Assembly (NCBI RefSeq): GCF_900106765.1
Contig: NZ_FNNG01000004.1
Location: 1 to 64,000, forward strand
Origin: Tepidimicrobium xylanilyticum
Lineage (GTDB): Bacteria; Bacillota; Clostridia; Tissierellales; Tepidimicrobiaceae
Length of the DNA: 64,000 nucleotides
Direction: 5' to 3'
The notes below the pieces were generated by a model, which did no database searches, was not told the origin of the DNA, and worked only from the letters and a program-made list of their open reading frames with translations. Below, piece by piece: positions 30,404 to 50,238 of this stretch. Each line of letters opens with the position of its first letter. Within the stretch, counting starts at the first letter, position 1. Made by a program: the position numbers and the translations under genes.

Positions 30404-31480
30404 TTATTTATAATACTTTCCGTACTTTTCATCTCCATATATCCTATATTCAGTTTCATACTTGCCATCTACGTAAATATCAATTATCACTCTATCATCA
30501 TCATGATCATAGTCATAATAGTAGAATATTTTATCTGCTATTCTATCTAAAGTATCAAGCAGTTCATAATTTTTTATATCCACATATTCACTGCGAGAAA
30601 TATCTAGGTCTATGGATAAATAAACTTCATAGTTTCTAGTATCAATGTCATCTATATAGACTTTAATTTTTTCTTTATCAAACTCATTATATACTATATC
30701 TTCTATATCCCTATCATAATACCCTCTACTACTACTGCTGCTACTTCCATAGGAAATACTTAAACTGCTATTCTTCTTTTTATTAAATGTTAATACATCC
30801 TTTCTATAGTATTCATCATATATTGAACCATAAATATCTACATTGCTAATTTCTGATAATATTATATCTACAATATCTTCTATCAGAGCTTTTCTGTCGC
30901 TATGCTTTATTCTATTCCAATAGTTTTCCTGTCTAACATCTCTTAAATCCATTGTAATGTTTACATCAATCCTATTACTGCTTTCCTTTAAAACTATGTC
31001 AAAGTCTACCCCTTCATAAGTACCAAATTTGCTATTTAACTCTTTTTCAATATCCTTAATGTCTTTCTCTTTTTTAGCTTTCTCCTCTTCAGCTTTTTCT
31101 TTTAACTTTTCAATTTCCTTTTTTAGTTCAGCAATTTCATTATCCCTCTTCTTCAACTCCTCCTCATAGGCTTTCGATTTAACGTCTATAATCTCTGCCG
31201 TATAGGTTTCTTCGTCCCATTTTATCTCCATGTCTAATAGTTCAGCAATAGCCCTTACTGGTACATAAGAACGCCCATCTACAATAAAAGCAGGTGTATT
31301 ATACTTCTTTTCTATTTCCTTCGTCACATCCTTACCACCTACTTTAAATTTAATTCTTCCGTAAGTAGCCGTAAGCTTCTTTTGATATACTTGATTGGCT
31401 GCTGTAGCAATGGTACCCAATGCTAAAACCAATACTATTGAAATAATTAGTACTTTTTTAAATCTAATACCTTTGAACAT
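30404..31480 (-). CDS. Secreted protein with copper-amine-oxidase-like N domain and two copies of an unrecognised repeat
   Basis: A 358-residue exported protein: signal peptide about 1-28, then a copper amine oxidase N-like domain (about 33-98, with AFIVDGRSYVPVRAIAELL), a charged coiled coil (about 103-147) and two copies of a ~95-residue alpha/beta unit (about 145-245 and 258-350). The units start with a LNSKFGTYEGV-like strand and end in IYGSIYDEYYRKD-like strands; a serine-rich linker lies between. The same unit occurs three times in the protein at 48295-50238. ATG 31480 follows GGGAGG. The N-domain is common in cell-surface proteins of Clostridia and is not catalytic. Function is unknown. 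Confidence 0.8.
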   Translation of the reverse strand: MFKGIRFKKVLIISIVLVLALGTIATAANQVYQKKLTATYGRIKFKVGGKDVTKEIEKKYNTPAFIVDGRSYVPVRAIAELLDMEIKWDEETYTAEIIDVKSKAYEEELKKRDNEIAELKKEIEKLKEKAEEEKAKKEKDIKDIEKELNSKFGTYEGVDFDIVLKESSNRIDVNITMDLRDVRQENYWNRIKHSDRKALIEDIVDIILSEISNVDIYGSIYDEYYRKDVLTFNKKKNSSLSISYGSSSSSSRGYYDRDIEDIVYNEFDKEKIKVYIDDIDTRNYEVYLSIDLDISRSEYVDIKNYELLDTLDRIADKIFYYYDYDHDDDRVIIDIYVDGKYETEYRIYGDEKYGKYYK

Positions 31481-31778
31481 AAAATCCCTCCCATACTCTT
31501 TTATTATATACTATTGTATCATCATAAGGGAAGTGCTTTCAATTATTTTTACTACTTCTTTAGTACCATCTTTCTCATGTATATTTTATAAATATTCCTC
31601 CCTGTTTTTTCTTATTTTAAGACCTCTAAACCCTCCTGTTACTAATTTTTTAACCTTACCCATTAGGCTCTCAGATATTGATTGAGGAATTAATATGGAT
31701 AGGGATTTATTCCTATTTTATTGCAAAATATGTCATATTCGGTCTTTTTATGGTAAAATAAGCTAAAGGAGTGATAGT
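31481..31778. other. AT-rich intergenic region between divergent genes
   Basis: About 300 bases between the start of the gene at 31480 and the plus-strand gene at 31779. It should hold both promoters. I see no clear structure or conserved reading frame in it. Confidence 0.4.
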
Positions 31779-32018
31779 ATGTATTATGAAGAAAATAAAA
31801 AAAGCAATTCGTTATTAGCTCCAAGGGAACTATTACATTTAAAACTAAAATACAATAAATTATTAAATGAGTACAAAAAAGCAATGACTGATTTAGGATA
31901 TGCAACATATGATAAGGTAATATATAAGAATCTAAAAGACGAAGAACTGGAAAAATTCGTAATACGCATCAAAGAACTCGAAATGGAAATGGAAAAACTC
32001 AATGAAATAATTTATTAG
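31779..32018 (+). CDS. Small coiled-coil protein, unknown
   Basis: A 79-residue cytoplasmic protein, highly charged and helical, with heptad-like leucines (LLHLKLKYNKLLNEYKKAM near 17-36 and ELEKFVIRIKELEMEMEKL near 56-74). A good ribosome site AAAGGAGTGA lies six bases before the ATG. I do not recognise its family. It sits between a surface-protein gene and a stretch of decayed mobile elements, on the strand opposite to its neighbours. Confidence 0.65.
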   Translation: MYYEENKKSNSLLAPRELLHLKLKYNKLLNEYKKAMTDLGYATYDKVIYKNLKDEELEKFVIRIKELEMEMEKLNEIIY

Positions 32019-32074
32019 GATTACAGTCAAAAAATAGTGATTAATAATCACATGTTAGACTTGTATAAGTAAAA

Positions 32075-32210
32075 ACGACCATTTTGGAGCGCTAACTTAA
32101 TATCAACTATGGCACTGGCTATAGCTCCTTTTAGACTTCCAGCAAATAGCCAGTTCTTTTTTTCCTTCTATAAATGGTCTTATGCTATTTTTCGCTATGT
32201 TATTTGATAT
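32075..32210 (-). pseudogene. IS66-family transposase, C-terminal fragment (frameshifted)
   Basis: On the minus strand the two frames read ISNNIAKNSIRPFIEG and then KNWLFAGSLKGAIASAIV, matching the IRPF...GRKNWLFS...GAKASA block near the end of IS66 transposases. A run of seven A between them shifts the frame by one base. No upstream transposase remains. Confidence 0.72.
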
Positions 32211-32235
32211 TTTACTATATACCATAATACTTAAC

Positions 32236-32370
32236 TCATTCTCCCCATAGCAAATTTACAGCATTATATAATTCATTTGTAGATTGACGTAAATATATAC
32301 TGGCTGTCTTTAGGTCATTATGCCCTAATGGGTTTTGTACTGCTACAATATTAGCGTTATTGTTAATTAA
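32236..32370 (-). pseudogene. Tyrosine recombinase/integrase, C-terminal fragment
   Basis: The minus strand encodes LINNNANIVAVQNPLGHNDL then KTASIYLRQSTNELYNAVN and a stop. This is the LGH...T...IY block of XerC/D-like recombinases with the catalytic tyrosine. A stop codon precedes it in frame and the rest of the gene is missing. Confidence 0.72.
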
Positions 32371-32612
32371 TTATATGTCTTATTACTCAAAATGGTCGTA
32401 GATTTTATTCTTAGAAAAATATATCCAGCACTCACGGTTTAACTATCTTGACAAAGTGTGGAAAAATATAATCTAGCATTTTTTCCATAACAAAATACAT
32501 TTGCGAAATAAACCTGCTAAAATGTTAATTGGCTAAAATAACATAGGAAGGAAATTTATTCACAAGTACAATCTAACTTTGTCACACAATTGTTAAATTT
32601 AGAATGGGTTAA

Positions 32613-32776: not shown

Positions 32777-32819
32777 ACTTTTAGTTTATCATCCAATTAC
32801 ATTATGTCCTAGCCTCTAA

Positions 32820-35800
32820 TTATGCAGTAATTTCAATTGTATCAGATGCTGAACCGAATTGTATTGTTATAATTACTTTAGAATCATCATCAGATTTTGC
32901 AGCTGATACACCATCCATACCCGCAATTGCTGCATTAACATTGTTTAGCGTTGTATCTGCATCAGTATTCCAAGTAAGATTTAATTCTTCTACTTGTTTT
33001 TTTACTCTTGCCACCATCTCTGTATCTGATTCTATTTCATCAATTGCTGCCTTTGCATCTGCAAGTGCTGTGTCTACTTCTTCAGTTGTTGTAGCTGCAT
33101 CTATAGCTGCTTTACCAGTTGCTATTGCTGTTGCTAAATCTGCAGCATTTACTGTATAATCTGCAGCATCTTTATATTCATCTAACTCATCTTTTGCTGC
33201 TTCCTTCGCTGCTTCTAAATCTGCTTCTGAATTAACTCTATCAATTACTTCTTGAATTTCTGCAAGTGTTTCTTCTGTGCCAGCTAATGCTGCATCATAT
33301 TCAGCTATTAAACCGAATCTTAGATTTTCCAATCCAGCTGCTCTTAAAGCATCCCATAGTTCTTCTAGAGTTTGTGCTTCATTTATTGCTTTTACTTTTT
33401 CTGCTTCATCTTTTCCTTCTAATTCTTTTATTTTTTCTACTGCCTTATCTAATTTGTCTTTTGCTTCATCACTTACAAATTTCTTAGCTTCATCGCTTAA
33501 GTTATTATATGCTGTTTCTGCTTCTTTTACTGCATCTTTATTAGCTAATGTTATTTCTTCTACTTTTGGTAGCTTGTTAATTAATTCTACTACATTTTCA
33601 GCTGCATCCTTTGCTTGTTTTTCACTTTCTTTCTCTGCTACTGTTTGACCTTCTTTTAGAAGTTCTTTTGATTCAAATTCATAATAGTATGATGCATCTA
33701 ATCTTTGTCCGCTTGTAGTTTTTAATGTGTTTTCAATCTTTAATCCAAAATACTTATTAACTACAGTTAAATCGTCCCAATCTAGAGGAATTTCTAGAAG
33801 TACTACATAACCATTACTCTTTAATATAGCTTCACCGTTTAAATCATCTACATCTTTTCTTAGAACTCTAGTCTTAATGTCATTTTTATCTCCTTGAGTA
33901 TAGAAGATATAGTTTGTTCCATCTTCTGCCATGCTTCTGTCTAGTTTCTTATTAAATTCAATTTCTATTTCTGTATCTCTTGTTCTTGTTCCTTCATATA
34001 CCTTAACACTTTTAACTATGAAATCACTTGATTTAGTAAATTCAAATGAATAGTAATCTCTGTACATTTTGTTTCTTGAAGATGACATATCTGTGAAGCC
34101 TTCAATTTCTAAGATGTATTCGATGTCGTTATCCTTATTATCCCATATCTTCAAGCCTTCTATTACTACATCTATTACATCTTTTTCATATCTCTTTTCT
34201 TTTACGTTATAGTAATATTTAGCTGAAGTTATCTTAGGATCGTTCTCACCATCTAACTTAGTTCTCTTAGATACTTCATCTTCATATAGAGCAAAGTGAT
34301 CTTTTACTATAAAACCTTCTTCTTCTTGTGTTTTTTCACTCTTATCATTTACAAAGCTACCTTTTACTTCTTTATTGAAGTGTAGTCTTATTGTAGCTGT
34401 TCCAGTCTTGGAATCAAAAGTTTTACTTACTATTTCTTTCTTTATTATTTCTGGTTCAATGTCATCTAATACTTCTCTAAGTGCTATAGTTGTTTTTTCC
34501 ATTTTAACTCTTGAGTGGTTTTCAATGTCTACTATAGTTACTTCATCTCTTCTTGAAGGTGCTTCATTATCTTTGAATTCATAAACAACTTTATTTGTAT
34601 CTACTTTTGTAGCACTATCTGCGTATATAGTATGTCTTCCTAGTTCATAAGAGATATTTCCTGTATCAGATTTGCTGTAATATTCTGCTACTGAAGGTTT
34701 GTAGATGTCTTTATCAAATACTACTTCTACTTTATTTCCTTTTAATATAGCGTCTACTACTTTTGGAGCTTCATTATCTTTTACTATTTCAATATCGAAA
34801 TCTTCTTTTGCAGATTTATACCCTGCAAAGTCTACTAATCCTTCAATAGTTAAAGTCTTAGCACCGCTTGGGAAACTTCCGCTGTATGGAGTTAAAATTA
34901 AGTTTCTTCCATATCTTTCAACGTTCATAACGATGTATTTTCCATCTACTAAGAAGTTTTTACCTCTTACATCTTCTATTGGTTCGCTAGTTATAACTTT
35001 TATACCATATTCTCCAAGAACTTCTACTTTTTCTACTGATGGTATAGTGTTGTCTCTAGCTACAAATTTATATTTTCCATTTATAGCTTTGTCTACATTT
35101 TTAATTTCTAATTGATATTCTTTACCACTTCTTAAAGTATCTCTTACTTCTAGTAAAAGATCATTACCTTTTAATTCTGCTCTTTCAATTACATTGCCTT
35201 CTAGTCTGTAATTGCTAGTATTTAATAGTTTTTCTTCGTTTGCTAATTTAGCATTTGATAATTCAACTTTTATTTCTTTTAAGTTTTCAGTATCGTTAAC
35301 TGTAGCTTTTAATTCTTTTGGTGCTGGCATTTCAATTCCTAAGAATTCTGCTAATGTTTTACCTTCTTTTTTCATTTTAACGCCAAGAGCGTTAAATATC
35401 ATTGTTGCTACATCTTCTCTTACGATTGCTGCGTTAGCATCAGCTTCTTTAACGCCTTCTAGTATTCCTAATTCTTTAGCTTTATCCATTACAGACTTCC
35501 ATTCAGTATCGCCATACTCTAGTGCTCTTAAAAGAACTAGTGCGAATTCTTGTACTAATATGGATTCTCTTGGTTTGAAGTTTCCATTTGGATATCCTTC
35601 AAAGTATCCATTGGCTGTTGCCCATCCTAAGAACCCTGCATAATATGGGTCGTTATTGTCTGGGTATATTTCATCTTCAGCTGGTTCATAGTTCTTAGCT
35701 TCTTCTTCTGCTTTAAGAAGCCTGCTTAATAATACTACTGCGTCACGTCTTTCAAGTGCCTTGTCAAGCATTAAGTTACCTGACTTGTCACCTTTTAAGA

Positions 35801-35912
35801 TACCATTCTTTTCTAAGAAAGCTGGTACGTTTACTTCTTCATCTGCAAATACAAATGAGAAGCTGCTTAGGATCATTACTACTGCAAGTAGTAGTGACAG
35901 TTTTCTCTTCAT
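32820..35912 (-). CDS. S-layer protein with three SLH domains
   Basis: A 1030-residue exported protein: signal peptide (1-23, cut probably after FVFA), three SLH domains (about 25-180; YPDNNDPYYAGFLGWA and YFEGYPNGNFKPRESI are typical) that bind the pyruvylated secondary wall polymer, then about 600 residues of beta-rich Ig-like segments and a C-terminal helical, alanine- and glutamate-rich region with FIVAR-like repeats (about 765-970). ATG 35912 has AAAGGAGGT eight bases upstream and a long structured leader, and the codons are A/T-biased, as for a highly expressed gene. It is the best candidate in the window for the main S-layer subunit. Confidence 0.87.
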   Translation of the reverse strand: MKRKLSLLLAVVMILSSFSFVFADEEVNVPAFLEKNGILKGDKSGNLMLDKALERRDAVVLLSRLLKAEEEAKNYEPAEDEIYPDNNDPYYAGFLGWATANGYFEGYPNGNFKPRESILVQEFALVLLRALEYGDTEWKSVMDKAKELGILEGVKEADANAAIVREDVATMIFNALGVKMKKEGKTLAEFLGIEMPAPKELKATVNDTENLKEIKVELSNAKLANEEKLLNTSNYRLEGNVIERAELKGNDLLLEVRDTLRSGKEYQLEIKNVDKAINGKYKFVARDNTIPSVEKVEVLGEYGIKVITSEPIEDVRGKNFLVDGKYIVMNVERYGRNLILTPYSGSFPSGAKTLTIEGLVDFAGYKSAKEDFDIEIVKDNEAPKVVDAILKGNKVEVVFDKDIYKPSVAEYYSKSDTGNISYELGRHTIYADSATKVDTNKVVYEFKDNEAPSRRDEVTIVDIENHSRVKMEKTTIALREVLDDIEPEIIKKEIVSKTFDSKTGTATIRLHFNKEVKGSFVNDKSEKTQEEEGFIVKDHFALYEDEVSKRTKLDGENDPKITSAKYYYNVKEKRYEKDVIDVVIEGLKIWDNKDNDIEYILEIEGFTDMSSSRNKMYRDYYSFEFTKSSDFIVKSVKVYEGTRTRDTEIEIEFNKKLDRSMAEDGTNYIFYTQGDKNDIKTRVLRKDVDDLNGEAILKSNGYVVLLEIPLDWDDLTVVNKYFGLKIENTLKTTSGQRLDASYYYEFESKELLKEGQTVAEKESEKQAKDAAENVVELINKLPKVEEITLANKDAVKEAETAYNNLSDEAKKFVSDEAKDKLDKAVEKIKELEGKDEAEKVKAINEAQTLEELWDALRAAGLENLRFGLIAEYDAALAGTEETLAEIQEVIDRVNSEADLEAAKEAAKDELDEYKDAADYTVNAADLATAIATGKAAIDAATTTEEVDTALADAKAAIDEIESDTEMVARVKKQVEELNLTWNTDADTTLNNVNAAIAGMDGVSAAKSDDDSKVIITIQFGSASDTIEITA

Positions 35913-36249: not shown

Positions 36250-36381
36250 AATGGCTTCCGCCGCTCGGGGTGGAAGCCATTTTATGATTACATTACTGTG
36301 CCAGTACTTCAATTGCTTTTTTTAGTTGTTGGTCTTGGCTTTTTATTATTATATCTGGTTGTATGCCTTCTTTGTTTATAG
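36235..36381 (+). CDS. Possible 48-residue membrane peptide antisense to ctpA 3' end
   Basis: An ATG at 36235, nine bases after AGGAGG, opens 48 codons: a short basic N-terminus (NNNGFRRSGWKPF) and then a continuous hydrophobic stretch to the stop. It overlaps the terminator hairpin and the last 90 bases of the protease gene on the other strand. The strong ribosome site is the only real support; the hydrophobic part may be a shadow of the ctpA frame. Confidence 0.25.
   Translation: MVGNNNGFRRSGWKPFYDYITVPVLQLLFLVVGLGFLLLYLVVCLLCL
36250..36281 (-). terminator. Terminator of the ctpA-like gene
   Basis: AATGGCTTCC pairs perfectly with GGAAGCCATT around a GC-rich twelve-base loop, 11 bases after the stop. 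The minus-strand tail GTTATTCC is only moderately T-rich. Confidence 0.65.
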
Positions 36382-37405
36382 TTGATTTATTAGGGGTTTG
36401 GTATTCAGCTATGGTTAGTTTTATACCGTCTCCATAGGGTAGTGGAATTATATTTTGGACTGTTCCCTTGCCATAGGTCTTAACCCCTATAATTGTCCCA
36501 ACTTTTGTGTCCTTTACTGCCCCTGCGAATATTTCTGAAGCAGAGGCTGAATTTTCATTTACCAGTACAGCTAGTTTATATTTGGGCTTCTTTAAATTTG
36601 AATAATAGGTTTGTTCTACATTATCCTTATATTTTACATGCACTATAGGACCTTCTGGAATGAATAGATTTAGTATGTTTACAACCTCACTTAATAATCC
36701 ACCTGGGTTGTTTCTTAGGTCTATTATAATGTTAGTAATACTTTTCTTATCAAATTCCCTTAATGCTGAAACTACATTTTCATAAGTATGCGGATTAAAT
36801 TGAGTTATCTTTATATAGCCAATTCTATCATTCAATATTTTAAATTCTACAGGATTTATGATGATTTCTGCCCTTTTAATATTCTTATATATCCTGTTAT
36901 TGTTTCTGCTAATACCCAATTTTACAGTAGTTCCAGCTTCGCCTTTAATCAGTTGGGTTACCTCTTCTAGTGATTTTCCTTTTACATTCTCTCCATTTAC
37001 AGATATTATCTCATCTCCAGCCTGAAGTCCTACTCTCTCAGCAGGACTTCCTTTTATAGGCTCGGATATTATTATAGACCCTTTATCTTCTTTAATATAT
37101 ACTCCAATACCTATAAATTCACCTGAAAGCTCTTCCGTTAAGCGTTGGAATTCTTCTCTAGTATAGTATTGGCTGTTTTCATCTAATGCTTGGAATATTC
37201 CTCTAATAGCACCTTCTATCAATTCTGATTCTGTAGTTTCATAAAAGTAATGAGTTTCTAGAAGGTTTTTTACATATAATAGATAATTTAGATCTAAGTT
37301 AGCATTATTTGCTGCTCCTACAGTAACTGGGAAAGACAATTGAAGTATGAAAGCTACTAATATTAATGATAAAATTTTTCTTCCCCTATACCCTTTAATA
37401 TTCAT
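36293..37405 (-). CDS. C-terminal processing protease, PDZ/S41 family
   Basis: A 370-residue exported serine protease of the CtpA/S41 family. Signal peptide about 1-28, a helical region, a PDZ domain (about 90-170, with GIGVYIKEDKG and VGLQAGDEIISVNG), then the catalytic core with NPGG near 235, the nucleophile in NENSASASEIFAGA near 285 and the general base lysine in KTYGKGTVQ near 310. I use ATG 37405, eight bases after GGGAG; a GTG at 37414 is the other option. It sits between surface-protein genes in the same direction, so processing of exported or wall-anchored proteins is its likely job. Confidence 0.9.
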   Translation of the reverse strand: MNIKGYRGRKILSLILVAFILQLSFPVTVGAANNANLDLNYLLYVKNLLETHYFYETTESELIEGAIRGIFQALDENSQYYTREEFQRLTEELSGEFIGIGVYIKEDKGSIIISEPIKGSPAERVGLQAGDEIISVNGENVKGKSLEEVTQLIKGEAGTTVKLGISRNNNRIYKNIKRAEIIINPVEFKILNDRIGYIKITQFNPHTYENVVSALREFDKKSITNIIIDLRNNPGGLLSEVVNILNLFIPEGPIVHVKYKDNVEQTYYSNLKKPKYKLAVLVNENSASASEIFAGAVKDTKVGTIIGVKTYGKGTVQNIIPLPYGDGIKLTIAEYQTPNKSTINKEGIQPDIIIKSQDQQLKKAIEVLAQ

Positions 37406-37423
37406 TAAAATCACTCCCAGTTA

Positions 37424-38893
37424 TTAGTTTAATATATTCTCTCTATAATCATATTTTAATTGATTTTGTAGATAGTTTATAAAGTTCACCAATAAGGTGG
37501 CCGTTTCTTCCTTCGTAATAGGCTTATTCGGATAGAAATATTCATCCCTTGGAATTATATTCAACTCTTTTGCCATATATACGTGATCCTTAGCCCAGGA
37601 TGGGATGCTGGAATCATCTATAAATCCAGTTGAGTAATTGCCAATAGGGGCTAGGTTTTGGAAGCCTAAAAGTCTAATTAAAATGGTGGTAGCTTCTGCT
37701 TTGGTTAATTCCCTATCGGGTTCAAACCTGTCCTTTCCTACGCCTATCATAATGCCTCTATTGGATACCCCTTCTATATAAGGATAGTTTCTATGGGTTT
37801 TAGGCACGTCTATATACCTTAGTTTTTCTTCTTCGGCTTTTTTCCTACTCCTCCTGCTGCTGGTTTCTTCTACCGGCAACTCTATATCCATAGTATTGGC
37901 TAAGGCTCTAGCAAAATCCCCCCTACTTACTGCTGTTTGAGGGCCTAAATTGGTGGCAGTTATTGAAAAGCCATTCATACTAGCTATTAACAATATGTCC
38001 TTTTCAGATGCTAGGCCCCTCACATCTCTTAAAGCTGGTATGTTTAGCCTTCTAATTATTGGGTTAGTGTCAATGCTTGTGGAAGCTTGTCCCAAATTCC
38101 TTCCTGAGCCTTTAAGTCTTGGTAGGTCATAAGAGTATTTAAGGACATTCTCATGTTTTTCCGTTAATATGAACCCCCCATGGAAGGATATCTGATTAGG
38201 TATATTTTCTACAAAATTGTAATCCTTAGTCTTATTATAAGAAGCTTCTACCGTAGCAGTACCTTCCCAAAAGTCATTTGCATTCATTTTGTTGTTATAC
38301 TCTATTATATAATGTAGGGTTTGCGTTTGAGTAGCAGACCAAGGGCTATCATAGCCTACTAGGTTTCCTATGGTTTGGACTGTAACCTCTTCTGTAGGAG
38401 TTCTTCTATTACCAACTTTATAGGTCTTTCTAGCTGCCCAATCGCCTGCATAGTATTCTAAAAGGCCCGTTTCATGAAGGATTTGGCCTTGATTCCATTG
38501 GTAATCCTCTGTATCTACCTTATAAGTTTTTCCATTTATTTTAAAGGTTTCTGAATACTTATCCAGCGTTTTTTGGGATGTGGTTTGCTTCCCATTGGTT
38601 TCAAAGGTTTCCGTTAATGTAATGTTTCGCTTTAATGATGCTCCTAATTTTAAATTGTAAAGGTCGTATTTATAGGTGTATGTTTTTGTTTGAACCCCTT
38701 TTTTACTCCTTTCTTTTATGCTTATATTCAAAGTGCCTTCCAACTCTATAGGCTCTCCTGTAATAAATATTACTTCCTTATAATTGTTTTCATTATTTAT
38801 TCCGCCTTCATAGCCTGGAATTTCTACGGCAAAAGAAGATGATGCTAATACTAATATTAGAATTAAGGTTAATACTGTTGTTTTTATTTTCAT
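37424..38893 (-). CDS. Cell-surface protein with C-terminal SLH domains
   Basis: A 489-residue exported protein: signal peptide 1-22, a beta-rich N-terminal region of unknown type (about 25-280; it includes paired aromatic/threonine strands), and three SLH units at the C-terminus (about 290-480; ANTMDIEL, GIMIGVGKDRFEPDRELTK, NIIPRDEYFYPNKPITKEE). An arginine/serine/lysine-rich linker near 333-345 may be a protease site. The start is ATG 38893 with GGAGGT eight bases upstream. It ends 18 bases before the protease start, so the two are likely co-transcribed. The N-terminal domain was not recognised. Confidence 0.85.
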   Translation of the reverse strand: MKIKTTVLTLILILVLASSSFAVEIPGYEGGINNENNYKEVIFITGEPIELEGTLNISIKERSKKGVQTKTYTYKYDLYNLKLGASLKRNITLTETFETNGKQTTSQKTLDKYSETFKINGKTYKVDTEDYQWNQGQILHETGLLEYYAGDWAARKTYKVGNRRTPTEEVTVQTIGNLVGYDSPWSATQTQTLHYIIEYNNKMNANDFWEGTATVEASYNKTKDYNFVENIPNQISFHGGFILTEKHENVLKYSYDLPRLKGSGRNLGQASTSIDTNPIIRRLNIPALRDVRGLASEKDILLIASMNGFSITATNLGPQTAVSRGDFARALANTMDIELPVEETSSRRSRKKAEEEKLRYIDVPKTHRNYPYIEGVSNRGIMIGVGKDRFEPDRELTKAEATTILIRLLGFQNLAPIGNYSTGFIDDSSIPSWAKDHVYMAKELNIIPRDEYFYPNKPITKEETATLLVNFINYLQNQLKYDYRENILN

Positions 38894-38994
38894 TTTGTTA
38901 ACCTCCAGTTTTATCAATTCAGGATAACCAGTTCATAATTCACGATTATTCTGCGCTTTAGCCCTTGGGGCTTTTCATTATGGTTTAACTTAGG

Positions 38995-39017: not shown

Positions 39018-39027
39018 TTAATGTCTT

Positions 39028-41646: not shown

Positions 41647-41648
41647 TT

Positions 41649-44600
41649 TTATCTATCTGATAGCAGTATATATTTCCCTCTTCCATTAAAGGAAGTTATC
41701 CTGTTATCGGATATTTTAACATAATTTCCAGTGGAGGTGTCAAATTTGTATAGAGTTACATTCTTTGCATTTGAATAGGTTATATCATCTAGGTTTAAGG
41801 TTAGCTTGCCATTTCTTAGCAATTGGTCAATATCCATGTAATCCTTCCCTCTCTGGAATCTAAAGTGGAAATCGTAAGCTCTTGATGCTATTCTCTTTCC
41901 TCTTGGGATATGGGATTCTCCCTGTCTTTTTATGTTAATTTGAAGGTTAGAATCCTTATCCCCTTCATCCAACATGGAGACTCTAAAGGTGTACATATCC
42001 TTTGGATTAATAGTCATCTGCAGTTCTCCATATTTTATATTTAATGTAGAGTCAGTTCTTGCTAGGGCTATTGGTATGTTTATTATTAATTCATTAGTGT
42101 TTTTATATTTGGAGTGGTTAAAGTCTAAGCTACCCACATTGTTTTTAATATCCTCTGTACCTAATGTTCTTATTATCTTGCTTCCTATTATTTCTTCCTT
42201 ACCTTTTTCTATTAATTTCTTCTGTTCTTCTTTAAGCCTTTCTTCCTTCTCCCTTTGTTTGTAGTCTTCCTGTAGACTTAAAGTCCTTACCTCAACTTCT
42301 GCAAAATCTATGGCTGCTCCATATTCGTTTAGGGCTCTTACCATGAATACATATCTAGTATTGGGTTCTAATCCCTTTATTAGATATTCTGCATCAGTTG
42401 TGCTGGCTATGAAAGTGCTGGCGTTTTCGCTAGCTTTCCTTCCGTATATCTCATATTTAGTAGCCCTGTTCAACAAATCTGGATCCGACTCGTTCCAGAT
42501 TAACATTACCGTTGATTCATAGCCTGGAATGGCTTCTAATACCATTGGTTTTAGTGGCAATGGTTTTTCGTATTTGAAGTCGTTATAAGGGTCGGATACC
42601 CCCCCATCTGGGTTGATTATTATGATGCTACTATTCTCTAGGTTGGTGGCTTCGTTAAACCTTATCTTGATTTCGTTAGTATTTACCACATTAACACTTG
42701 CTGCTTCCATTCCACCTATTACTGCCACTTCCCTATTATTCCCTTGTGGATCTACTCCAGTTATTCCTTGTCCCTTTACATCCATTCCAGATTTTAATTC
42801 TCTAATTGGGATTATTTCCCCACCTATTATTACCTTAGCACCGGGCATGAATTGATTTCCTGTTATGGTTACTTCTGTTTTTGTGTCGTTTGTAAATAGT
42901 TTTTTAGGGTTGATATCGTCTATTCTTGGTTTTGATATATAAGTAAATATTAAGTTTTCTTGGGTTGGGCTGTTGTCTGGGTTTTCCACCTTCACCCTTA
43001 CAGGTCCTATGGTATCCGATGGCGGAGCAATTACCTCTATTGTACTATGGTCAATTATCTTTATATCCTCTCTGGATACTTGGTTGTCTCCAAAGAATAC
43101 CTTTAACTCTTCCCCTTCATAGCCTTCCATGCTCTTTCTAAAGTCCTTACCTTTAATGGTAGCCTTCGTTCCTCCTGTAGCTGGTCCTCTATCTGGCTCT
43201 ATACTGCCTAACTCTGGACCCGATTCCCCCTTGACAAATTGAATATAAATTGGTGCATTCCAGATATTGTTTGGGTTATCGGAGGATACCTGAGAACCAT
43301 CTCCGTTAATTACAGTTACCCTATATAGCTTTCCTATTGCGTTTTCATTGACTGGAGGCATGATGAAGGCTAATTTATTTGGGCTGGCATTTAAGGTTTC
43401 CGTTATATCCTTGTTATCTATATCCAATATATCTCCTATCTGGATTCGTGCTCCTTCTCTAAAATCCTCTCCCAATACGGTAATATGTTGGCCTCCCCTG
43501 TAGTCTAACCTTAATATTCTAGTCTTTCCATCGTCCCCTATGCTTGGATCCATTCCATCCCTTGTGATGTTTAAAATTCTAGGTTTACTTGCAGGGTTGG
43601 TATATTTATACCTTGTAGTAGCCCTTCCTCCATCTGGATTGGTTACCTCTACCTGCACATCCCCTACTGTGTAATAGGATGGAGTTTTCAACTCAATTTG
43701 CCCAGTATTCACCAATTTGGTTTCTGGGGAATATCCCTTTTCTACGATTAACTTCCTATTTTCAGTCTTAATCATTACCAGTTCATACCCAGGATAGGCC
43801 TTTCCATCGGTACTTTCTAATTCCCAAGTAGGAAGGTATATGGGCTTTCCGCTATATCCTTCAATGGTAAAGGTCTTTTTGTATATCTCTTTATTATATT
43901 TAGCTGTCATGGTAATGTTAGTTCTCTGAATTTGAGAACCATCATATTCTATGGTGAAATCCCCATTTTCCAAGGTAACCTGGGCTATATTGTTGTTCAA
44001 ATCCTTAATTCCACCTATGGTACCAAAGCGGACTCTAGGCATATATTCCTCTCTAATATTTCCACCTTCCAATATGGACATTAGGGTGTTTTGGAATCCA
44101 GAACCTATTATTTCTACTGCATCTTTCCCTTGTTTCTTTCCTGTATCCCCTACTATTCTGTCTATTGTGATTCTAGAGCCTTCAAAATTGATAAATACCC
44201 TATTAGATGTTCCAAAATCGTTATTTACTACATAAAGTTCATGACGCCCTGGGGTAATCTGAGGAGTTATTACCTTAATATAGTTGGTACCAAATTCAAC
44301 TATCTTGGCTTCTAGCCCCCCTATCCTTACCTTTGGAAGTACTTCAGATGTCAGATATTTATCGTAAGTATCTACAGGAACAGGAAGGGGTTCTGTCTTT
44401 CCAAGTTCTTTATTTTCAATATAGTCTATCCAATTGGAGTACGAGGTGAAACTTTCACTGTCATCTAAGTCTTCGTAATATACTGTAACTCCTTGTCTCG
44501 TTCCTTCTTTCCAATCCCTATACTTCTTTGTTAAACTCCAAGGTTCTTCATATTTGAAGTATCTACCAGTTATAGTGAGTATCTCTCCTCCAGCTGCAGA

Positions 44601-47600
44601 GCCTACTTGAGTATCTTTTTGGAACTCTATTCCATCTATAATAGGTCTTGCTGAAGGTGGAATTACATAAGTAAACCTTCCTATGGCTGTACCGCCATTT
44701 CCATTTTCTACCGCTACAGGAACTACCTTTCTATCCGTTCCTTCTTGAGCCATATTTCTCCTATATGGTGGCATATTGGTTATAATTAAAGTATCTTTGC
44801 CTGATATGGTCTCCCTTCTTACATCGTTAGCTGGTACTAGAACCCCATCTACATAAACTTTAGAATCATCTTCAAAGTTGATTCCTTCTATGAGGATTTG
44901 ATATCCTCCCTCTATAGAACCAATACTTGGCTTTATAGCATGAATTTCAGGCTTTAAGGATACGGCCTCATAGTAGTAGAATTTATCTCTGGCTGTAGAT
45001 TTCTTCGTATCTGGATTTTCCACAGTAATGGTATATCCATCAGGCAGTTTGGAATTTAACTGTGGCACCTTAAATTCTATTCGGTTTTTATCTATCACTT
45101 TAACCCTTGAACCGTATATTTCCCCTGCTTCATTAAATTTATAGGGGGTTTTCATTATAAGTGTTAGAGTTTCTCCATCTTTCGATAGTTCTATTCCATT
45201 TTTATTTACATTAATATCATAAACTTGTCCATCCTTTTCAGCTACTATATTTCCATTTATCTCCACAATATAATATTCATTTATTATGCTGCTTTGATCA
45301 CTACCAGAGCCTCCATCAGATAGGATTATATTCCCTCTAATATCCTGATATATGGTATAGAAGTTGTTAGGTCTATCTTTGTCCTCCAATATTACGCTAT
45401 GATGGTAGTCTGCAAGGTTTAAGCTATGTCCATCATATTTTATGAGCTCTTGATTCTCATTTTCATATTCTTCCAATACAATCTTTCCATTGACGATATT
45501 GTACTCGTTTATGTCAACTCCATCCATGAGGATTCTGCTTCCTATTAATCTATAGATTCCCATTCCAGCAGTGGTACCTACCGATGGGTTTGGGGCTAGG
45601 AAATTTTCCCCATCTACTATTACTACAGTATCCTTAGTTCCCGATTTAGGTGAAAAGTCCATAAATTGAGGATCTCGTTCCAAGGATTTTACATAGGTAA
45701 AATCTCTACTTGCCTGGCCTCCATCGGGATTCATTACAATAAGCTTTGTGGGTCCTTCTATTATCTGAGGATACTTTGGTGCATTAAATTTAAGTATGGT
45801 ATTAAGACCTGATGGGTCTAATTCCTGTTTTACTCCTTGTACTTCTACTCCTCCCACAAATACTCTAACTCCCTGTTGGAAGTTGGAGCCTGTAACTGTA
45901 ATCTCTTCCCCTGAATCTATGGCCACTACATTAGGGGTAATTCGGTCTATGCTTGGAGGTAAACCATCCTTAAGGTCTATGAACATTAAGGATACATTGT
46001 AGTTAAAACCGGGATAACCGGGTTCGTTACTTCCAAGTATTGGATTCATTACATATACAAGCTTAGGCCTAGGATTTTTTAAATCGGTAGTAACAGAATT
46101 TGCTGGAATTTTTACTTCCTCTGTTCTAGGCAGGGTGATTATTATTTTACTTCCTGTATCCCTTCCTACGGTTCCATCTATGATATTCCCCTTAGAATCC
46201 AATACCACCATGTCGGCCCCTGGTAAATCCTCCCATGCTCCGTTATGATATCTCTGTACTTGTCCTTCTTCTTTGGGATTAATTCTCAAAACAATGCCTT
46301 GATCGGCATCGTTCATTTGGGCGCCTAGTCCTACCACTGGATAATTGGTTATTTCCTCATTGCTTTCTGGATCTCTGCTTCTTATTACTTTAAAGTTTTC
46401 TCCTTCTATTCCTATCACTATATCTTCTTTTAAAACGTAATCTTCCGAGGATTTATCCTTTACTACTTGGATTTTTTCTGGCGATATCTTGTTAATGCTT
46501 GGAGGTGTATGACTTGGGACTATAGTGTATTTTACATTGTCGTTGGAAATAATGTTGGTAATGGTATGCGTTTCCCCAGATTCAGTTTTAATTTCAGTTT
46601 GCATGATTATTATTACATTTACTTCAGTCTCTTTATTTACGGTAGTTTGAGGTAATTTAACGGTTATATCATCAAAAATCTCAGTAAATTTATAAACTGG
46701 GTTTCCATTTGTTTCAACTGGCGTAGTTTTATCTCCTATATAGGTGGCTATATATCTGTTTACCTCTGTTATATTTTGTCCATTATAAGTTGCTTTATTA
46801 TTTTGATCTGCATTTTTATAGGTTATGTGGAATACCCTGTCCTGATTTTCTTCATCGCTTCCAAATTCTGAATCTATTATCCCTTTTAGGGTATCGCCAA
46901 TGGTTATAGTGCTTACTTTTACTTCATCTACACTAAGGGATTTTTCGTCAATACCATTTATAAAGCCCAATTCATCAAATCTTATACCTGTTACTTCTAC
47001 TGTTTCTCCTGTATCTGGCCCTCTTTCGGGTTCAATCCTGCTTAGTACTGGCCCTTTATCGGCTCCAATTACGAAAAACCTTCCTTCTACCTTTCTGGTA
47101 TCAGTAATCTGTTCATATATATTCCCTCTAGGATTGGTAATTTTATTGGTAACTATTACATCATAATATTTAGCATCCGTTATTCCCTTGGGTATTTTTA
47201 TTTTTAATACCTTGTTGGTGGCTGACAATATTTCAGCCATATTATCGGCGCTATATCTATCCGTAGCATCTTCTAGAAAAAATACTGAATGTTGTGCCTC
47301 TCCATCTTTTATAGTAAAGTTTCCATCGGCTTTGATGTATGCAATGCTTTCTCTCGTTCCCGATTGTGGGATAATCTCCAATTTAGCTCCAAGTTGAGGC
47401 ATATTACCTAATAGTTTAAATGCGTTACGATAAATGGCTGATTGTTCTACTTCTCCATCATCCAATCTTAACGTAATATTTTTAAATCCTGTAGTCCCTT
47501 TCATAACTTCGCTAAAGCGGTCGTATTGGTCAGCAACGAAAACTCCTTGTTCGCCGGTTATCTGAATTTTAACATTTGCTGCATTCAATCTTGCTCCTGT

Positions 47601-48041
47601 AAAGCTTACCTTCTGGCCTACGTTTACATCATAGGTTTCCATTTTGTTTATTATAGGAGCAGGGTCTATTTTTAATATAAAACCACCTACTCTAATTTCA
47701 GTTATCCTAATATTGCCCTGAGGATTGGTGATCCAAGATTCTACCGTTATGGGTTTGCCTAATTCGTTTTCGCCTACATTTATCTGATCTATAACTTGTG
47801 GATCCCCCTCTTCTTTAAAAATAGTAACATTATGGGTACCTGATTTATTTATAATGGCTTCAACACTTATGTAAATTGATTCTAATTGATTTTCATTTCC
47901 AATGCCCGACTTGTACGTGTACACAATCTTATTCTTAGATTGAGCGAATACACCTACCGGTCCTATTACTGGTATTATGAAGGATATTATTAATAATATG
48001 GATAATAGCTTTTTTCCTATTTTCGATTTTACCTTAACCAT
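41649..48041 (-). CDS. Giant exported protein with about eleven IPT/TIG domains and one fibronectin type III domain
   Basis: A 2130-residue surface protein. Signal peptide about 1-34 (VGVFAQ end). Then a long array of IPT/TIG Ig-like domains, recognisable by openings such as LSRIEPERGPDTGETVEVTG, PSIDRITPNVVAIDSGEEI, EIHAIKPSIGSIEGGYQIL, ELGSIEPDRGPATGG and RIDDINPKKLFTNDTKTEV. A fibronectin type III domain follows (about 1865-1950; MVLEAIPGYES, YEIYGRK, LEPNTRYVFMVRALNEYGAA), then a charged coil and a C-terminal beta domain. No SLH domain, sortase motif or membrane anchor was seen, so how it is held at the cell is open. ATG 48041 has AAAGGAGAT upstream. Adhesion or S-layer bridging is inferred. 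Confidence 0.87.
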   Translation of the reverse strand: MVKVKSKIGKKLLSILLIISFIIPVIGPVGVFAQSKNKIVYTYKSGIGNENQLESIYISVEAIINKSGTHNVTIFKEEGDPQVIDQINVGENELGKPITVESWITNPQGNIRITEIRVGGFILKIDPAPIINKMETYDVNVGQKVSFTGARLNAANVKIQITGEQGVFVADQYDRFSEVMKGTTGFKNITLRLDDGEVEQSAIYRNAFKLLGNMPQLGAKLEIIPQSGTRESIAYIKADGNFTIKDGEAQHSVFFLEDATDRYSADNMAEILSATNKVLKIKIPKGITDAKYYDVIVTNKITNPRGNIYEQITDTRKVEGRFFVIGADKGPVLSRIEPERGPDTGETVEVTGIRFDELGFINGIDEKSLSVDEVKVSTITIGDTLKGIIDSEFGSDEENQDRVFHITYKNADQNNKATYNGQNITEVNRYIATYIGDKTTPVETNGNPVYKFTEIFDDITVKLPQTTVNKETEVNVIIIMQTEIKTESGETHTITNIISNDNVKYTIVPSHTPPSINKISPEKIQVVKDKSSEDYVLKEDIVIGIEGENFKVIRSRDPESNEEITNYPVVGLGAQMNDADQGIVLRINPKEEGQVQRYHNGAWEDLPGADMVVLDSKGNIIDGTVGRDTGSKIIITLPRTEEVKIPANSVTTDLKNPRPKLVYVMNPILGSNEPGYPGFNYNVSLMFIDLKDGLPPSIDRITPNVVAIDSGEEITVTGSNFQQGVRVFVGGVEVQGVKQELDPSGLNTILKFNAPKYPQIIEGPTKLIVMNPDGGQASRDFTYVKSLERDPQFMDFSPKSGTKDTVVIVDGENFLAPNPSVGTTAGMGIYRLIGSRILMDGVDINEYNIVNGKIVLEEYENENQELIKYDGHSLNLADYHHSVILEDKDRPNNFYTIYQDIRGNIILSDGGSGSDQSSIINEYYIVEINGNIVAEKDGQVYDINVNKNGIELSKDGETLTLIMKTPYKFNEAGEIYGSRVKVIDKNRIEFKVPQLNSKLPDGYTITVENPDTKKSTARDKFYYYEAVSLKPEIHAIKPSIGSIEGGYQILIEGINFEDDSKVYVDGVLVPANDVRRETISGKDTLIITNMPPYRRNMAQEGTDRKVVPVAVENGNGGTAIGRFTYVIPPSARPIIDGIEFQKDTQVGSAAGGEILTITGRYFKYEEPWSLTKKYRDWKEGTRQGVTVYYEDLDDSESFTSYSNWIDYIENKELGKTEPLPVPVDTYDKYLTSEVLPKVRIGGLEAKIVEFGTNYIKVITPQITPGRHELYVVNNDFGTSNRVFINFEGSRITIDRIVGDTGKKQGKDAVEIIGSGFQNTLMSILEGGNIREEYMPRVRFGTIGGIKDLNNNIAQVTLENGDFTIEYDGSQIQRTNITMTAKYNKEIYKKTFTIEGYSGKPIYLPTWELESTDGKAYPGYELVMIKTENRKLIVEKGYSPETKLVNTGQIELKTPSYYTVGDVQVEVTNPDGGRATTRYKYTNPASKPRILNITRDGMDPSIGDDGKTRILRLDYRGGQHITVLGEDFREGARIQIGDILDIDNKDITETLNASPNKLAFIMPPVNENAIGKLYRVTVINGDGSQVSSDNPNNIWNAPIYIQFVKGESGPELGSIEPDRGPATGGTKATIKGKDFRKSMEGYEGEELKVFFGDNQVSREDIKIIDHSTIEVIAPPSDTIGPVRVKVENPDNSPTQENLIFTYISKPRIDDINPKKLFTNDTKTEVTITGNQFMPGAKVIIGGEIIPIRELKSGMDVKGQGITGVDPQGNNREVAVIGGMEAASVNVVNTNEIKIRFNEATNLENSSIIIINPDGGVSDPYNDFKYEKPLPLKPMVLEAIPGYESTVMLIWNESDPDLLNRATKYEIYGRKASENASTFIASTTDAEYLIKGLEPNTRYVFMVRALNEYGAAIDFAEVEVRTLSLQEDYKQREKEERLKEEQKKLIEKGKEEIIGSKIIRTLGTEDIKNNVGSLDFNHSKYKNTNELIINIPIALARTDSTLNIKYGELQMTINPKDMYTFRVSMLDEGDKDSNLQINIKRQGESHIPRGKRIASRAYDFHFRFQRGKDYMDIDQLLRNGKLTLNLDDITYSNAKNVTLYKFDTSTGNYVKISDNRITSFNGRGKYILLSDR

Positions 48042-48081
48042 TGCCCCAATCTCCTTTCCCCTTATTCAATGCACTATCCAC

Positions 48082-48115
48082 AATGCACAATTATTTAAGT
48101 CTAGCTTTTAGGTCT
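48082..48115. repeat. Intergenic repeat element, copy B
   Basis: The 34 bases AATGCACAATTATTTAAG... to GCTTTTAGGTCT match copy A. Next to it, ATTCC and GGAAT arms enclose CGGATGTGCCTC, corresponding to the degenerate inverted part seen at copy A. It lies upstream of the giant gene and downstream of nothing on the plus strand. Confidence 0.65.
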
Positions 48116-48294
48116 GAAATTCCTCGGATGTGCCTCGGAATAACAGTTTCCCAATTGACAATAATCTAAGTATATTATCGGCAAACATAGCAAGTTCTTA
48201 AGTTTATTATATATTATAAGCTAAATTTTTTCACCTGAATGCCGATAATATGGGAGAGAGTTACTATAGTAGTAAAGAACAAGGGGGAATGGTT

Positions 48295-50238
48295 TTGAAA
48301 AATAGAGCTATTATTTCTATAATGATTATACTGATTTTACTTCCATGCCTTCCTAAGCCTAGCTATGGAAAAGGTCAGGTGATGGAGATTGATGCTTTAT
48401 TTGGGGATTTTAAACTTCAGGTTGAAGGCTGGTATTTCCCCCATAAGGAAATATTCATATATGATGGAGAGCTTTGGGTACCTATGAAGGAAGTGGCCCA
48501 AGCCTTGGGTATGGGGTATAGTTATAATTCTAGAAATAGGACTTTAAAACTAGATTCCCATGGAAAGCTTAATATAAATGCCACTTCTATAAAACCTAGT
48601 GTTTATCAAAAAGGATATGAAATTCAAGCCATGTACAGAAGAATAGAGGATTTGAATAAGAAGATAAGGGAGTTTCAAGGCAGAAAAACTGATAGTTCCA
48701 GTAAATGGGAAGGAGAAATCCGAAACATTAAGGTGGGATTTTCTGATATAAATATATTCCTAGATGGTAAGAAAATATACTTGGATAGGAAACCCTTATT
48801 ATATAAGGATGATATATATGTTTCATTAGTATCTCTTTCTCCAGTACTCTACATTACCCCAGAGTTTGTTGATAATGTAGTAAATATAGACGGTAATGGG
48901 ATTTTGGTTAACAAACCGGAATATGGCAGTATTGAAAAGTTGATCAATGGCAGAAATTCCCTTAGCTTAAAGCTAGAGAAGGAATTAACAGAATTAGAGA
49001 AAAAGAGAAAAATAATCATGGATGTAAAAATACCTTATGAAAAAATAGATCGCTTAGATGATATGGAAATATATCTGAATAGACATTTAGGATATATAGG
49101 AGAGCTCCCTGTAAAAATTCACCTTAGAAAAGAAAGCGATTCTTGGTACTATGTAGACATAGAGTTTGAAACTGGGTATAATTTCAGATGGCGAGAATTA
49201 ACAAGGCGGGATGTAGAAGCCTATATATGGGATATATTCGTTGCCATTACCAGTTTATATGATGAGGAAGCAAAGATTCAAGGTCACATAGAGAACCCTT
49301 ACAGTTCTAGATATAATTATGTGGAATTTAATACCCAGATGAAAAACATAGTATTTAAGTTTATAGATAGCAGGTTAGATATGACGGAAAAGGTAGACCC
49401 TCAATTTATAGAAGATTTATTAGCAAAAAGATTGGATAGATATAATCGAGTATACTTCGATTATTCTGCTAGAATATCTGGCTATGATTTAGAACTTATA
49501 GTCTATCCTGATACTAGAAGCTTTATGCATAATTGGAGTCTTAATAGTAAAGTTAGTTTCTTAGAAAGGATAGATAGTATCATAAGGGAATACTATCCAC
49601 AATTAAGGATAAATGGAGTTATTGAATATCCTGGTAGAGATAGCATTGAGTTTTTAATCCATGAAGGTAAGATCCGTTCTCCATATTTAGAAAGGAAAAC
49701 TGAGGAATTTTTGAAAAAAAGATATGGATCATTTACATCTGGAAGTTTCAGAATCCCAATGGAATATAAGTTACACCAAACTAACTTAAATGATTATAAA
49801 CTGCTAGTATATATGGACTTTAATATAAATGATGAAAGATGGAACGAATCTGTAGACAGGGCATTGGACATATTTTTACATGATGTCATAGCTGAAGTGA
49901 TTGCCCTATGGGATGCAAATGTATTTCTTCAAGCTTATGACAAGAATCAGTATATTGTAAAGGAAATAGTAATATCTCAAGATGTGGTCCAAATGGTTAA
50001 TGCAGACCCCTTTCCTGGAGAAGTTGTAAAAGGTTCTACCGTAAGATTGTCTACCAATACCCTAGGAGCTAATATATACTATACCTTAGATGGTTCTGCA
50101 CCATCTCCATCGAATAGGATTCTCTATATTGATCCTATTGTGATAAATGAGGATACCATAATCCGAGCCTATGCTACAAAAGAAGGCATGAACGATAGCC
50201 CTATTTCCACCTTTAACTATAAGGTAGTGGAAAAATAA
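48295..50238 (+). CDS. Exported protein: copper-amine-oxidase-like N domain, three unrecognised repeats, chitobiase-C-like domain
   Basis: About 647 residues. Signal peptide (to about LPKPSYG), a copper amine oxidase N-like domain (ELWVPMKEVAQALGMGYSYN near 65), a second such part with GKKIYLDRKPLLYKDDIYV near 165-185, then three copies of a ~95-residue unit (about 257-357, 372-465 and 468-565) that also occurs twice in the protein at 30404-31480, and finally a chitobiase/hexosaminidase C-like beta domain (about 575-645; NIYYTLDGSAPS). I prefer TTG 48295, seven bases after GGGGG; ATG 48289 is nearly on that site and ATG 48250 has none. It is divergent from the giant TIG gene. Function unknown. 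Confidence 0.78.
   Translation: MKNRAIISIMIILILLPCLPKPSYGKGQVMEIDALFGDFKLQVEGWYFPHKEIFIYDGELWVPMKEVAQALGMGYSYNSRNRTLKLDSHGKLNINATSIKPSVYQKGYEIQAMYRRIEDLNKKIREFQGRKTDSSSKWEGEIRNIKVGFSDINIFLDGKKIYLDRKPLLYKDDIYVSLVSLSPVLYITPEFVDNVVNIDGNGILVNKPEYGSIEKLINGRNSLSLKLEKELTELEKKRKIIMDVKIPYEKIDRLDDMEIYLNRHLGYIGELPVKIHLRKESDSWYYVDIEFETGYNFRWRELTRRDVEAYIWDIFVAITSLYDEEAKIQGHIENPYSSRYNYVEFNTQMKNIVFKFIDSRLDMTEKVDPQFIEDLLAKRLDRYNRVYFDYSARISGYDLELIVYPDTRSFMHNWSLNSKVSFLERIDSIIREYYPQLRINGVIEYPGRDSIEFLIHEGKIRSPYLERKTEEFLKKRYGSFTSGSFRIPMEYKLHQTNLNDYKLLVYMDFNINDERWNESVDRALDIFLHDVIAEVIALWDANVFLQAYDKNQYIVKEIVISQDVVQMVNADPFPGEVVKGSTVRLSTNTLGANIYYTLDGSAPSPSNRILYIDPIVINEDTIIRAYATKEGMNDSPISTFNYKVVEK

Follow-up and report, generated by a model that had tools for sequence, protein, structure and literature searches.

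Two genes in the window, by which we mean the whole analysed stretch of 64,000 nucleotides from Tepidimicrobium xylanilyticum, raise the question of what the domain repeated in their products is, and of what such a domain does in proteins encoded around a cluster of SLH and TIG-repeat genes. A sequence-only reading had placed the open reading frames at 30404..31480 (minus strand, P0001) and 48295..50238 (plus strand, P0002), where both are indeed present, and had described a unit of about 95 residues shared by the two proteins in five copies, which it did not recognise.

The two proteins and the locus around which they lie

P0001, of 358 aa, is built in a simple linear order, with all of its features on the minus strand. 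It appears to be exported, as had been claimed for both proteins, by a signal peptide of the A-x-A type at about residues 1-28 (31397..31480), which was read from the sequence rather than called by a predictor. This is followed by the stalk domain PF07833, Cu_amine_oxidN1, at residues 36-97 (31190..31375), and by a long helix at residues 100-152 (31025..31183), a probable coiled coil according to the AlphaFold2 model and its charged, heptad-like sequence, which continues into the first helix of unit S1 (30746..31072). A divergent unit, S2 (30410..30712), ends the protein. P0002, on the plus strand and likewise apparently exported, starts at 48250 or 48295 and has 662 aa counted from the first ATG; the start at 48295 is a TTG with a ribosome-site-like AGGGGG 7 bases upstream. 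Behind its signal peptide Pfam gives two PF07833 stretches, one at residues 67-125 (48448..48624) and a PF07833-like one at about residues 157-218 (48718..48903), the borders of which come from the alignment; the region of the latter is also matched in P0002 orthologues (L036, 158-196; L038, 174-230). Then come the units B1 (49042..49365), B2 (49387..49686) and the divergent B3 (49693..49983), all located by profile-profile and profile searches, and a CHB_HEX_C_1/Fn3_assoc domain (50014..50211; Pfam E 4.9e-17). The copper-amine-oxidase-like N domain claimed for both proteins is confirmed by PF07833 matches of 41 bits in P0001 (E 2.1e-10) and 32.6 bits in P0002 (E 8.3e-8) against a cut-off of 24.2. 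No SLH domain was found by Pfam in either. By eye, the N-terminus of P0001 has no cysteine and thus no lipobox cysteine, and the one in P0002 lies in LLPC, which is not lipobox-like; it is kept in L033 and absent from L032, L034, L035 and L036.

The stalk has been met before. PF07833 is a homodimerisation domain in the solved structure of PaSOD (PMC10432803), is named among the wall-interacting anchors of cellulosome scaffoldins (PMC11557425) and is present in the cell-surface protein OlpC (PMC3413522). A Gram-positive surfaceome includes PF07833 proteins, some of them without other known domains, and the authors of that study, on D. reducens, tie the domain to cell wall hydrolases (PMC4137172). 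In the literature consulted, dimerisation is the only tested role, and the wall-anchor role is largely annotation. Proteins of the PaSOD and cellulosome OlpC/ScaG type share the N-terminal domain and export with P0001 and P0002; they differ in the C-terminal partner, which is the unit here and a SOD, a cohesin or a hydrolase in the others.

Between the two genes, as had been noted, lies the SLH/TIG cluster, whose members are conserved neighbours, all on the minus strand: SLH proteins of 1030 aa (32820..35912), 497 aa (37424..38917) and 827 aa (39028..41511), an S41 C-terminal processing peptidase (36293..37414), and a TIG-repeat protein of 2130 aa with fn3 (41649..48041), which is transcribed divergently from P0002. 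Downstream of P0002 Pfam identifies a small SLH protein of 162 aa (50267..50755, plus strand), with a gene at the equivalent position in G008 and G010.

Five copies of one unit

All five units are linked by profile-profile comparison, which bears out the earlier claim of one unit repeated in both proteins. S1 matches S2 with an E of 3.8e-20 and B1, B2 and B3 with 4e-13, 2e-10 and 5e-7, respectively; S2, whose order of elements in the model is like that of S1, matches the same three with 2e-11, 2.5e-6 and 5e-5. The comparisons within P0002 did not reach significance (B1-B2 0.003, B1-B3 0.09, B2-B3 0.12), and B1 to B3 are therefore joined only through the smaller protein. As controls, profiles were reversed, and columns were shuffled 20 times per pair for four pairs. 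The lowest E between different units was 0.027 with reversed profiles and 0.014 with shuffles, while a unit against its own reversed profile gave 0.0011 (S2), 0.0023 (B1) and 0.0037 (S1).

Built from 33 units found beyond the order, a further profile recovered S1 (1.9e-23), B1 (1.1e-16), B2 (6e-6) and B3 (7e-6, all E per sequence), against a best non-unit match of 0.0075 among the 197 open reading frames of the window. It is worth pointing out that these 33 units had been collected with a profile, A2, that included three units of the window (S1, B1 and B2) but neither its S2 nor any B3, so B3 is the sole fully independent find. B3 was also recognised, by a profile without B3 rows, in the P0002-type proteins of G142, G012, G010, G017 and G008. 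S2 is weak in single-profile searches, with 0.024 for the 33-unit profile and two pieces of 0.00086 and 0.17 elsewhere; its assignment depends on the profile-profile evidence and on relatives in which the second unit is strong (2.5e-28 in G007, 7.6e-28 in G124).

Some details of the original description had to be revised. The motif in the first helix is (L/V)-x2-(R/K/H/E)-(F/L/Y)-(G/D), the proposed spacing of L-x3 fitting only once, in B2. The final-strand pattern (I/V)-x-G-x-(I/V) is found in S1, B1 and B2 and not in S2 or B3. Nor does the unit end at that strand after about 95 residues, as one or two further strands bring it to about 105 positions.

Databases, fold and structural neighbours

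No Pfam or NCBIfam model spans the unit. DUF7167 (PF23768), a short model covering about a third of a unit, leaves P0001 and P0002 unmatched; with E up to 1 allowed, only 4 of 35 units match it, the best at 0.0012, and the only one of eight relatives to pass, the distant L079, scores 24.9 where 24.4 is required, with 36 of the 60 columns aligned, a half-unit match. Across Pfam, NCBIfam and PHROG, the search for a known domain returned only PF07833, CHB_HEX_C_1/Fn3_assoc, coiled-coil noise and this marginal DUF7167; PHROG 23118 aligns with P0001 along its stalk and coil and reaches no further into S1 than its first residues. Sequence searches of the PDB gave a lowest value of 0.019 with unit profiles, the best rows being designed proteins, and 0.33 with whole proteins. 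A viral or mobile origin was rejected, with no relative found in IMG/VR (profile A4), phages (S1) or plasmids (two units of L062); fold matches in BFVD were weak and unnamed (top 8.2e-4). Literature searches by name and accession returned no description of the unit, although most subscription journals lay outside them and its absence there is unproven.

The fold was more telling. AlphaFold2 was used to model P0001 and S1, the latter with alignment A8 after an earlier one with S2 rows, A7, proved misaligned. The stalk in the P0001 model is poor (pLDDT mostly 42-59), and the S1 model is a confident alpha-beta-beta-alpha-beta-beta fold of about 105 residues (pLDDT 95.4, pTM 0.87). CamS proteins head the Foldseek matches and also take four of the five highest-scoring rows when the unit is compared by VIA. 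Among solved structures, the C-terminal domains of CamS come nearest, at Z 8.6-10.2 and rmsd 2.7-3.5 over 90-97 residues; with 3ib5 at Z 10.2, rmsd 2.8 and 97 aligned residues, the unit model has the CamS C-terminal fold. The unit thus stands as a domain with no described sequence family over it, the marginal DUF7167 aside, as the sequence-only reading had it, while its fold is not new. CamS proteins, or sex pheromone staph-cAM373 precursor lipoproteins (PF07537; 3ib5, 4hn3, 2qx2, 3n2q), are exported proteins of Bacillota like the unit proteins, and their C-terminal domain overlays the unit over its full length. Unlike them, the unit proteins have no lipobox, carry a PF07833 stalk with a coiled coil, and hold one to three copies.

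Relatives, rival readings and a probable head-module role

Profile searches found unit proteins in a fair number of Bacillota genomes, in 29/398 genomes of the phylum and 35/249 of the order. Among 40 fetched loci, two units occur in 27 proteins, one in 11 and three in 2; most of these proteins have 245-444 aa, and one has 561. The stalk is on the unit gene at 39 of the 40 loci (38 by our own profile, L214 by Pfam). In the one protein without it, L189 of G530, SLH domains take its place, which suggests that SLH and PF07833 do the same anchoring job. G530 is the only relative with SLH domains in unit proteins, and holds a second such protein, L139, adjoining an ordinary stalk-plus-units protein, L140. 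Pure stalk proteins are not the only carriers of the unit, since L145 combines stalk, Trypsin_2 and unit in one protein. In 62 units, the columns in which a single residue reaches 50% or more belong for the most part to the hydrophobic core, the others being two glycines (one of them conserved at 95%), a tryptophan and acidic residues here and there; net charge runs from -55 to +2. An enzyme was rejected, as these units have no invariant set of catalytic-looking polar residues.

How close is the kinship to CamS? One could take the units for true, distant members of that family that have lost the lipobox and drifted past the Pfam model, which would be compatible with a head-module role. The structural matches favour this, as do comparisons of the CamS C-domain with S2 (E 7.7e-4, probability 25%) and, in the same register, with the 62-unit profile (E 0.0079, under the lowest of 100 shuffles, 0.017). 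The other units are weaker (S1 0.091, B1 0.014, B2 0.046, B3 0.011), S1 and B3 keeping roughly to this register along part of the domain and B1 and B2 off it; whole CamS gave 0.016, and its N-terminal part, at 0.085, gave no match to the unit profile. Probabilities reach only 5-25%, and PF07537 matches neither P0001 nor P0002 at E up to 10, nor anything in 100 relatives, the own genome included, while the positive control, Bacillus subtilis, was matched. The sequence likeness is only suggestive, and we consider membership rather unlikely, if the best placed of the alternatives. The ring-building motif domains FliF RBM2, EscJ, PrgK and SpoIIIAH-SpoIIQ are also structural neighbours, with a similar alpha-beta-beta-alpha-beta core in tandem copies, and would make the units self-assembly modules packing side by side between molecules into a ring or lattice in the wall. 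The tandem units and the likeness of neighbouring copies, in building-block fashion (80% identity in L061; nearly identical by eye in L075), fit this idea. However, their Z of 5.9-8.0 is below that of CamS and at or inside the tool's common-arrangement range, the layout is common elsewhere, and they match in structure without a sequence match or a membrane ring context, so we regard it as doubtful. A bolder version, in which a large unrecognised Bacillota surface family of stalk, coiled coil and tandem heads, the heads being akin to both CamS and ring-building motifs, uses these to link wall-anchored rods side to side into a lattice under or inside the S-layer, strikes us as more speculative still.

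The locus itself invites the reading that P0001 and P0002 are dedicated S-layer components that tether or space out the SLH proteins whose genes lie between theirs, or act as their chaperones. The pair surrounds the SLH/TIG locus in 5/7 relatives examined (G006, G008, G011, G012, G045), where the two genes share a contig, and the SLH-unit fusions of G530 point the same way. Within the order, SLH genes are near 7/14 unit loci against 3/19 control stretches, which is borderline (p 0.057). Overall, general SLH linkage had to be dropped (11/40 loci against 6/40 control stretches, p 0.27), 29/40 unit loci having no other SLH gene in the fetched stretch. In G017 the two types of gene are about 460 kb apart, so the proteins need not work together. 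The common envelope role proposed earlier thus draws on architecture and gene order and not on any general closeness to SLH genes; a dedicated S-layer part is, to our minds, about as doubtful as self-assembly. Least probable is a role in regulating exported proteases or helping them to fold, in the manner of the alpha-lytic protease prodomain: the prodomain-like protein 4hlb matches at Z 8.7, L145 is a protease fusion and the locus has an S41 peptidase, but the fusion is a single one, CamS scores equal or exceed that of 4hlb, and most unit proteins of the fetched loci, at their lengths, are too short for stalk, units and protease.

We find it reasonably likely, then, that the unit is an unnamed extracellular domain with the CamS C-terminal fold, forming the non-catalytic heads of surface proteins that are anchored at the wall and probably dimeric. 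After export, as the N-termini suggest, the PF07833 stalk would hold the protein at the cell wall, in keeping with the literature on this domain and its replacement by SLH in G530; the coiled coil would keep the heads off the wall and may also pair two chains; and the one to three heads may bind a partner, be it another protein of the envelope, a polymer of the wall or an external surface. In this lineage two unit proteins are encoded in a conserved envelope locus alongside SLH, TIG and S41-peptidase genes, and this gene order makes it probable that P0001 and P0002 help to build or decorate the envelope layer.

A domain that is blank in the searched databases now has defined borders, a model of high confidence and a profile for its family. 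It occurs in one class of exported proteins of Bacillota, and its structural relative is CamS, whose own mode of action has, to our knowledge, yet to be worked out. Should the heads bind or assemble, these proteins would represent a second, SLH-independent way of surface display in Clostridia-type bacteria.

The repeated unit and its fold

It had been proposed from the sequence alone that a single domain is repeated five times in two exported proteins, and reading both sequences in the window established that P0001 (30404-31480, minus strand) and P0002 (48295-50238, plus strand) with their five units in all are real. The units, S1 and S2 in P0001 and B1 to B3 in P0002, were cut as profiles from alignments of 24 P0001-type and 16 P0002-type proteins, among them those of the window itself, with relatives drawn from the 150 genomes nearest to the window's genome. 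Profile-profile comparison (hhalign) ties the five together, S1 matching S2, B1, B2 and B3 at 3.8e-20, 4e-13, 2e-10 and 5e-7, respectively. The lowest control values were 0.027 for reversed profiles of different units, 0.0011 for a unit against its own reverse, and 0.014 for column shuffles (20 each, four pairs); direct comparisons of B1, B2 and B3 among themselves were not significant (0.003-0.12). A profile of 33 units from genomes outside the order, with rows originally found by a profile containing S1, B1 and B2 but no B3, recognised S1, B1, B2 and B3, and S2 weakly. A 62-unit profile with no B3 row matched B3 in P0002-type proteins of five related genomes (G142, G012, G010, G017 and G008).

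The model of P0001, built with seven orthologues, has a mean pLDDT of 69, with blocks at 83-94 in S1, 66-89 in S2 and mostly 42-59 in the stalk, the PF07833 domain; S1 and S2 show an identical order of elements, and a long helix runs continuously into the first unit. S1 modelled alone, with nine further rows, reached a pLDDT of 95.4 and a pTM of 0.87, and its elements are H5-16, E25-31, E34-41, H46-54, H57-74, E79-86, E91-98 and E105-108. Among PDB entries, Foldseek placed CamS at the top both for the whole model (3n2q, 9.5e-8 over 241 columns) and for a single unit (4hn3, 6.4e-4). The rmsd to 3n2q is 17.8, so the two domains are arranged differently in the P0001 model and in CamS. With VIA-align, where rows less than 1 Z apart count as tied and values below 8 may reflect a common arrangement, the unit aligned with residues 275-378 of CamS 3ib5 at Z 10.2 (rmsd 2.8, 97 aligned), with 4hn3, 2qx2 and 3n2q at 9.6, 9.5 and 8.6, with the alpha-lytic protease prodomain-like 4hlb at 8.7, and with FliF RBM2 and others at 7.5 and below. 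The unit thus resembles CamS in the fold of the latter's C-terminal domain.

A relation in sequence is suggestive: the 62-unit profile matched 30 CamS C-domains at E 0.0079 (lowest of 100 shuffles, 0.017), and S2 did so at 7.7e-4, the remaining four units giving 0.011-0.091. Searches for CamS itself gave no match in 100 relatives and a match in 1 of 149 phylum genomes; in the class of that one carrier, presumably Bacilli, 37 of 61 genomes have it.

Distribution and architecture

Unit matches occur in 29 of 398 genomes of the phylum (35-unit query, E up to 0.001) and, within the order, in 35 of 249 (62-unit query), the window's genome counted in both. Seven carriers (L091-L097) are Clostridium sp. 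Cult1, Clostridium sp. Cult3, [Clostridium] ultunense DSM 10521, Schnuerera sp. xch1 (Tepidimicrobiaceae, Tissierellales) and three MAGs labelled Tissierellia bacterium, Tissierella sp. and Bacillota bacterium; L098 and L099 gave stalk matches, and no unit was seen in either. The window is placed in the family and order of Schnuerera.

Architecture was counted over 40 fetched loci, each of which has a unit gene in its central part. The stalk is present in the unit gene of 39 (38 by a custom stalk profile, L214 by Pfam), and the sole stalk-less gene, in genome G530, carries two SLH domains instead (custom profile and Pfam). Two G530 proteins have SLH-like sequence before the units in the stalk's place, L146:3041-4720 by Pfam and L139:1353-2759 by eye. 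Locus L190 holds a stalk-plus-units gene and, besides it, an open frame of 111 aa that matches the unit but lacks the stalk. Two units are found in 27 proteins, one in 11 and three in 2, some one-unit proteins being long enough to conceal a diverged second unit. Adjacent copies can be nearly identical (80% in L061), and copies therefore seem to have been gained by recent duplication. Outside the 40 loci, one protein (L145:1217-2698, genome G193) combines the stalk, a Trypsin_2 protease and one unit, and the P0002-type proteins of L036 and L038 have an added Cadherin-like domain. Residues 13-175 of P0001, the stalk and coil, resemble phrog_23118, a phage family of unknown function (E 5.9e-9), which suggests that phages may carry stalk proteins too.

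The gene cluster and its surroundings

The sequence-only reading also held that P0001 and P0002 flank an SLH/TIG cluster and might share an envelope role. The order P0001, SLH1030, S41 peptidase, SLH497, SLH827, TIG2130, P0002 was checked in seven relatives, and both ends are kept in five. Four of these share the window's family, and the fifth, G045, comes from a different family in the order. A general link to SLH genes is weak. All seven genes lie within the fetched stretch in G006; in G008, G011, G012 and G045 six do, the seventh (P0001 in the first three, P0002 in G045) lying on the same contig 0.3, 5.4, 6.0 and 0.4 kb past the end. G010 has six of seven, with a contig end at the expected place of P0001. 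In G017, which like G006, G011 and G012 belongs to the window's family, P0001 and P0002 are about 460 kb apart, and the 20 kb fetched contain no cluster gene. G001, which belongs to the window's genus and was outside this comparison, has the two genes on separate short contigs. An SLH gene besides the unit gene was present at 11 of 40 unit loci versus 6 of the 40 stretches used as controls (p 0.27), and within the order at 7 of 14 versus 3 of 19 (p 0.057), the total DNA (722 kb of unit loci, 796 kb of controls) biasing slightly against unit loci.

The 1.3 kb between P0001 and the SLH1030 gene (31481-32819) has no Rfam match and, on the cluster strand, no ORF as long as 90 aa, and a terminator-like hairpin follows the 1030-aa SLH gene. 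Adjoining the locus are tandem sulfatase-fold (PF00884) LtaS-like paralogues (52345-54141 and 54157-56586, both minus strand), and such a pair is likewise tandem next to P0002 in G017. In G012 (L102 / L035) the P0002-type match runs to residue 575 and resumes only at 633-661, in a short open frame of its own, which makes the last domain look broken; a second, partial copy of the S41 peptidase gene is present there. Elsewhere in the window, Rfam SECIS_4 at 14723-14760 (minus strand) lies immediately past the stop of an ORF at 14761-15810 (minus strand, 349 aa), which is probably a selenoprotein with UGA readthrough; its length recalls glycine reductase component B, which we take as a candidate.

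A possible role for the unit proteins

By eye, the N-termini of P0001 and P0002 are of export type. Both proteins contain PF07833 and bear tandem heads with a CamS-like fold, in P0001 by model and in P0002 by sequence. PF07833 would anchor the protein in the wall, since it is listed among wall-interacting domains (PMC11557425) and is contained in the cell-surface protein OlpC (PMC3413522), and it is swapped for SLH in G530. A surface location is likely because PF07833 proteins were found in a surfaceome, whose authors connect this domain to cell wall hydrolases (PMC4137172). The unit proteins may also dimerise, given the PaSOD crystal structure (PMC10432803).

CamS of S. aureus represses toxin production, and the abstract gives no route (PMC10769083), so from that abstract CamS supplies no mechanism yet for the unit. 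The unit defines a domain family that is real, fairly widespread and unnamed in the libraries searched; it is neither a new fold nor yet a new mechanism. Its conserved columns are the core, two glycines, one tryptophan and scattered acids, and its net charge ranges from -55 to +2; an enzyme would fit this pattern less well than a scaffold or recognition module whose surface can change.
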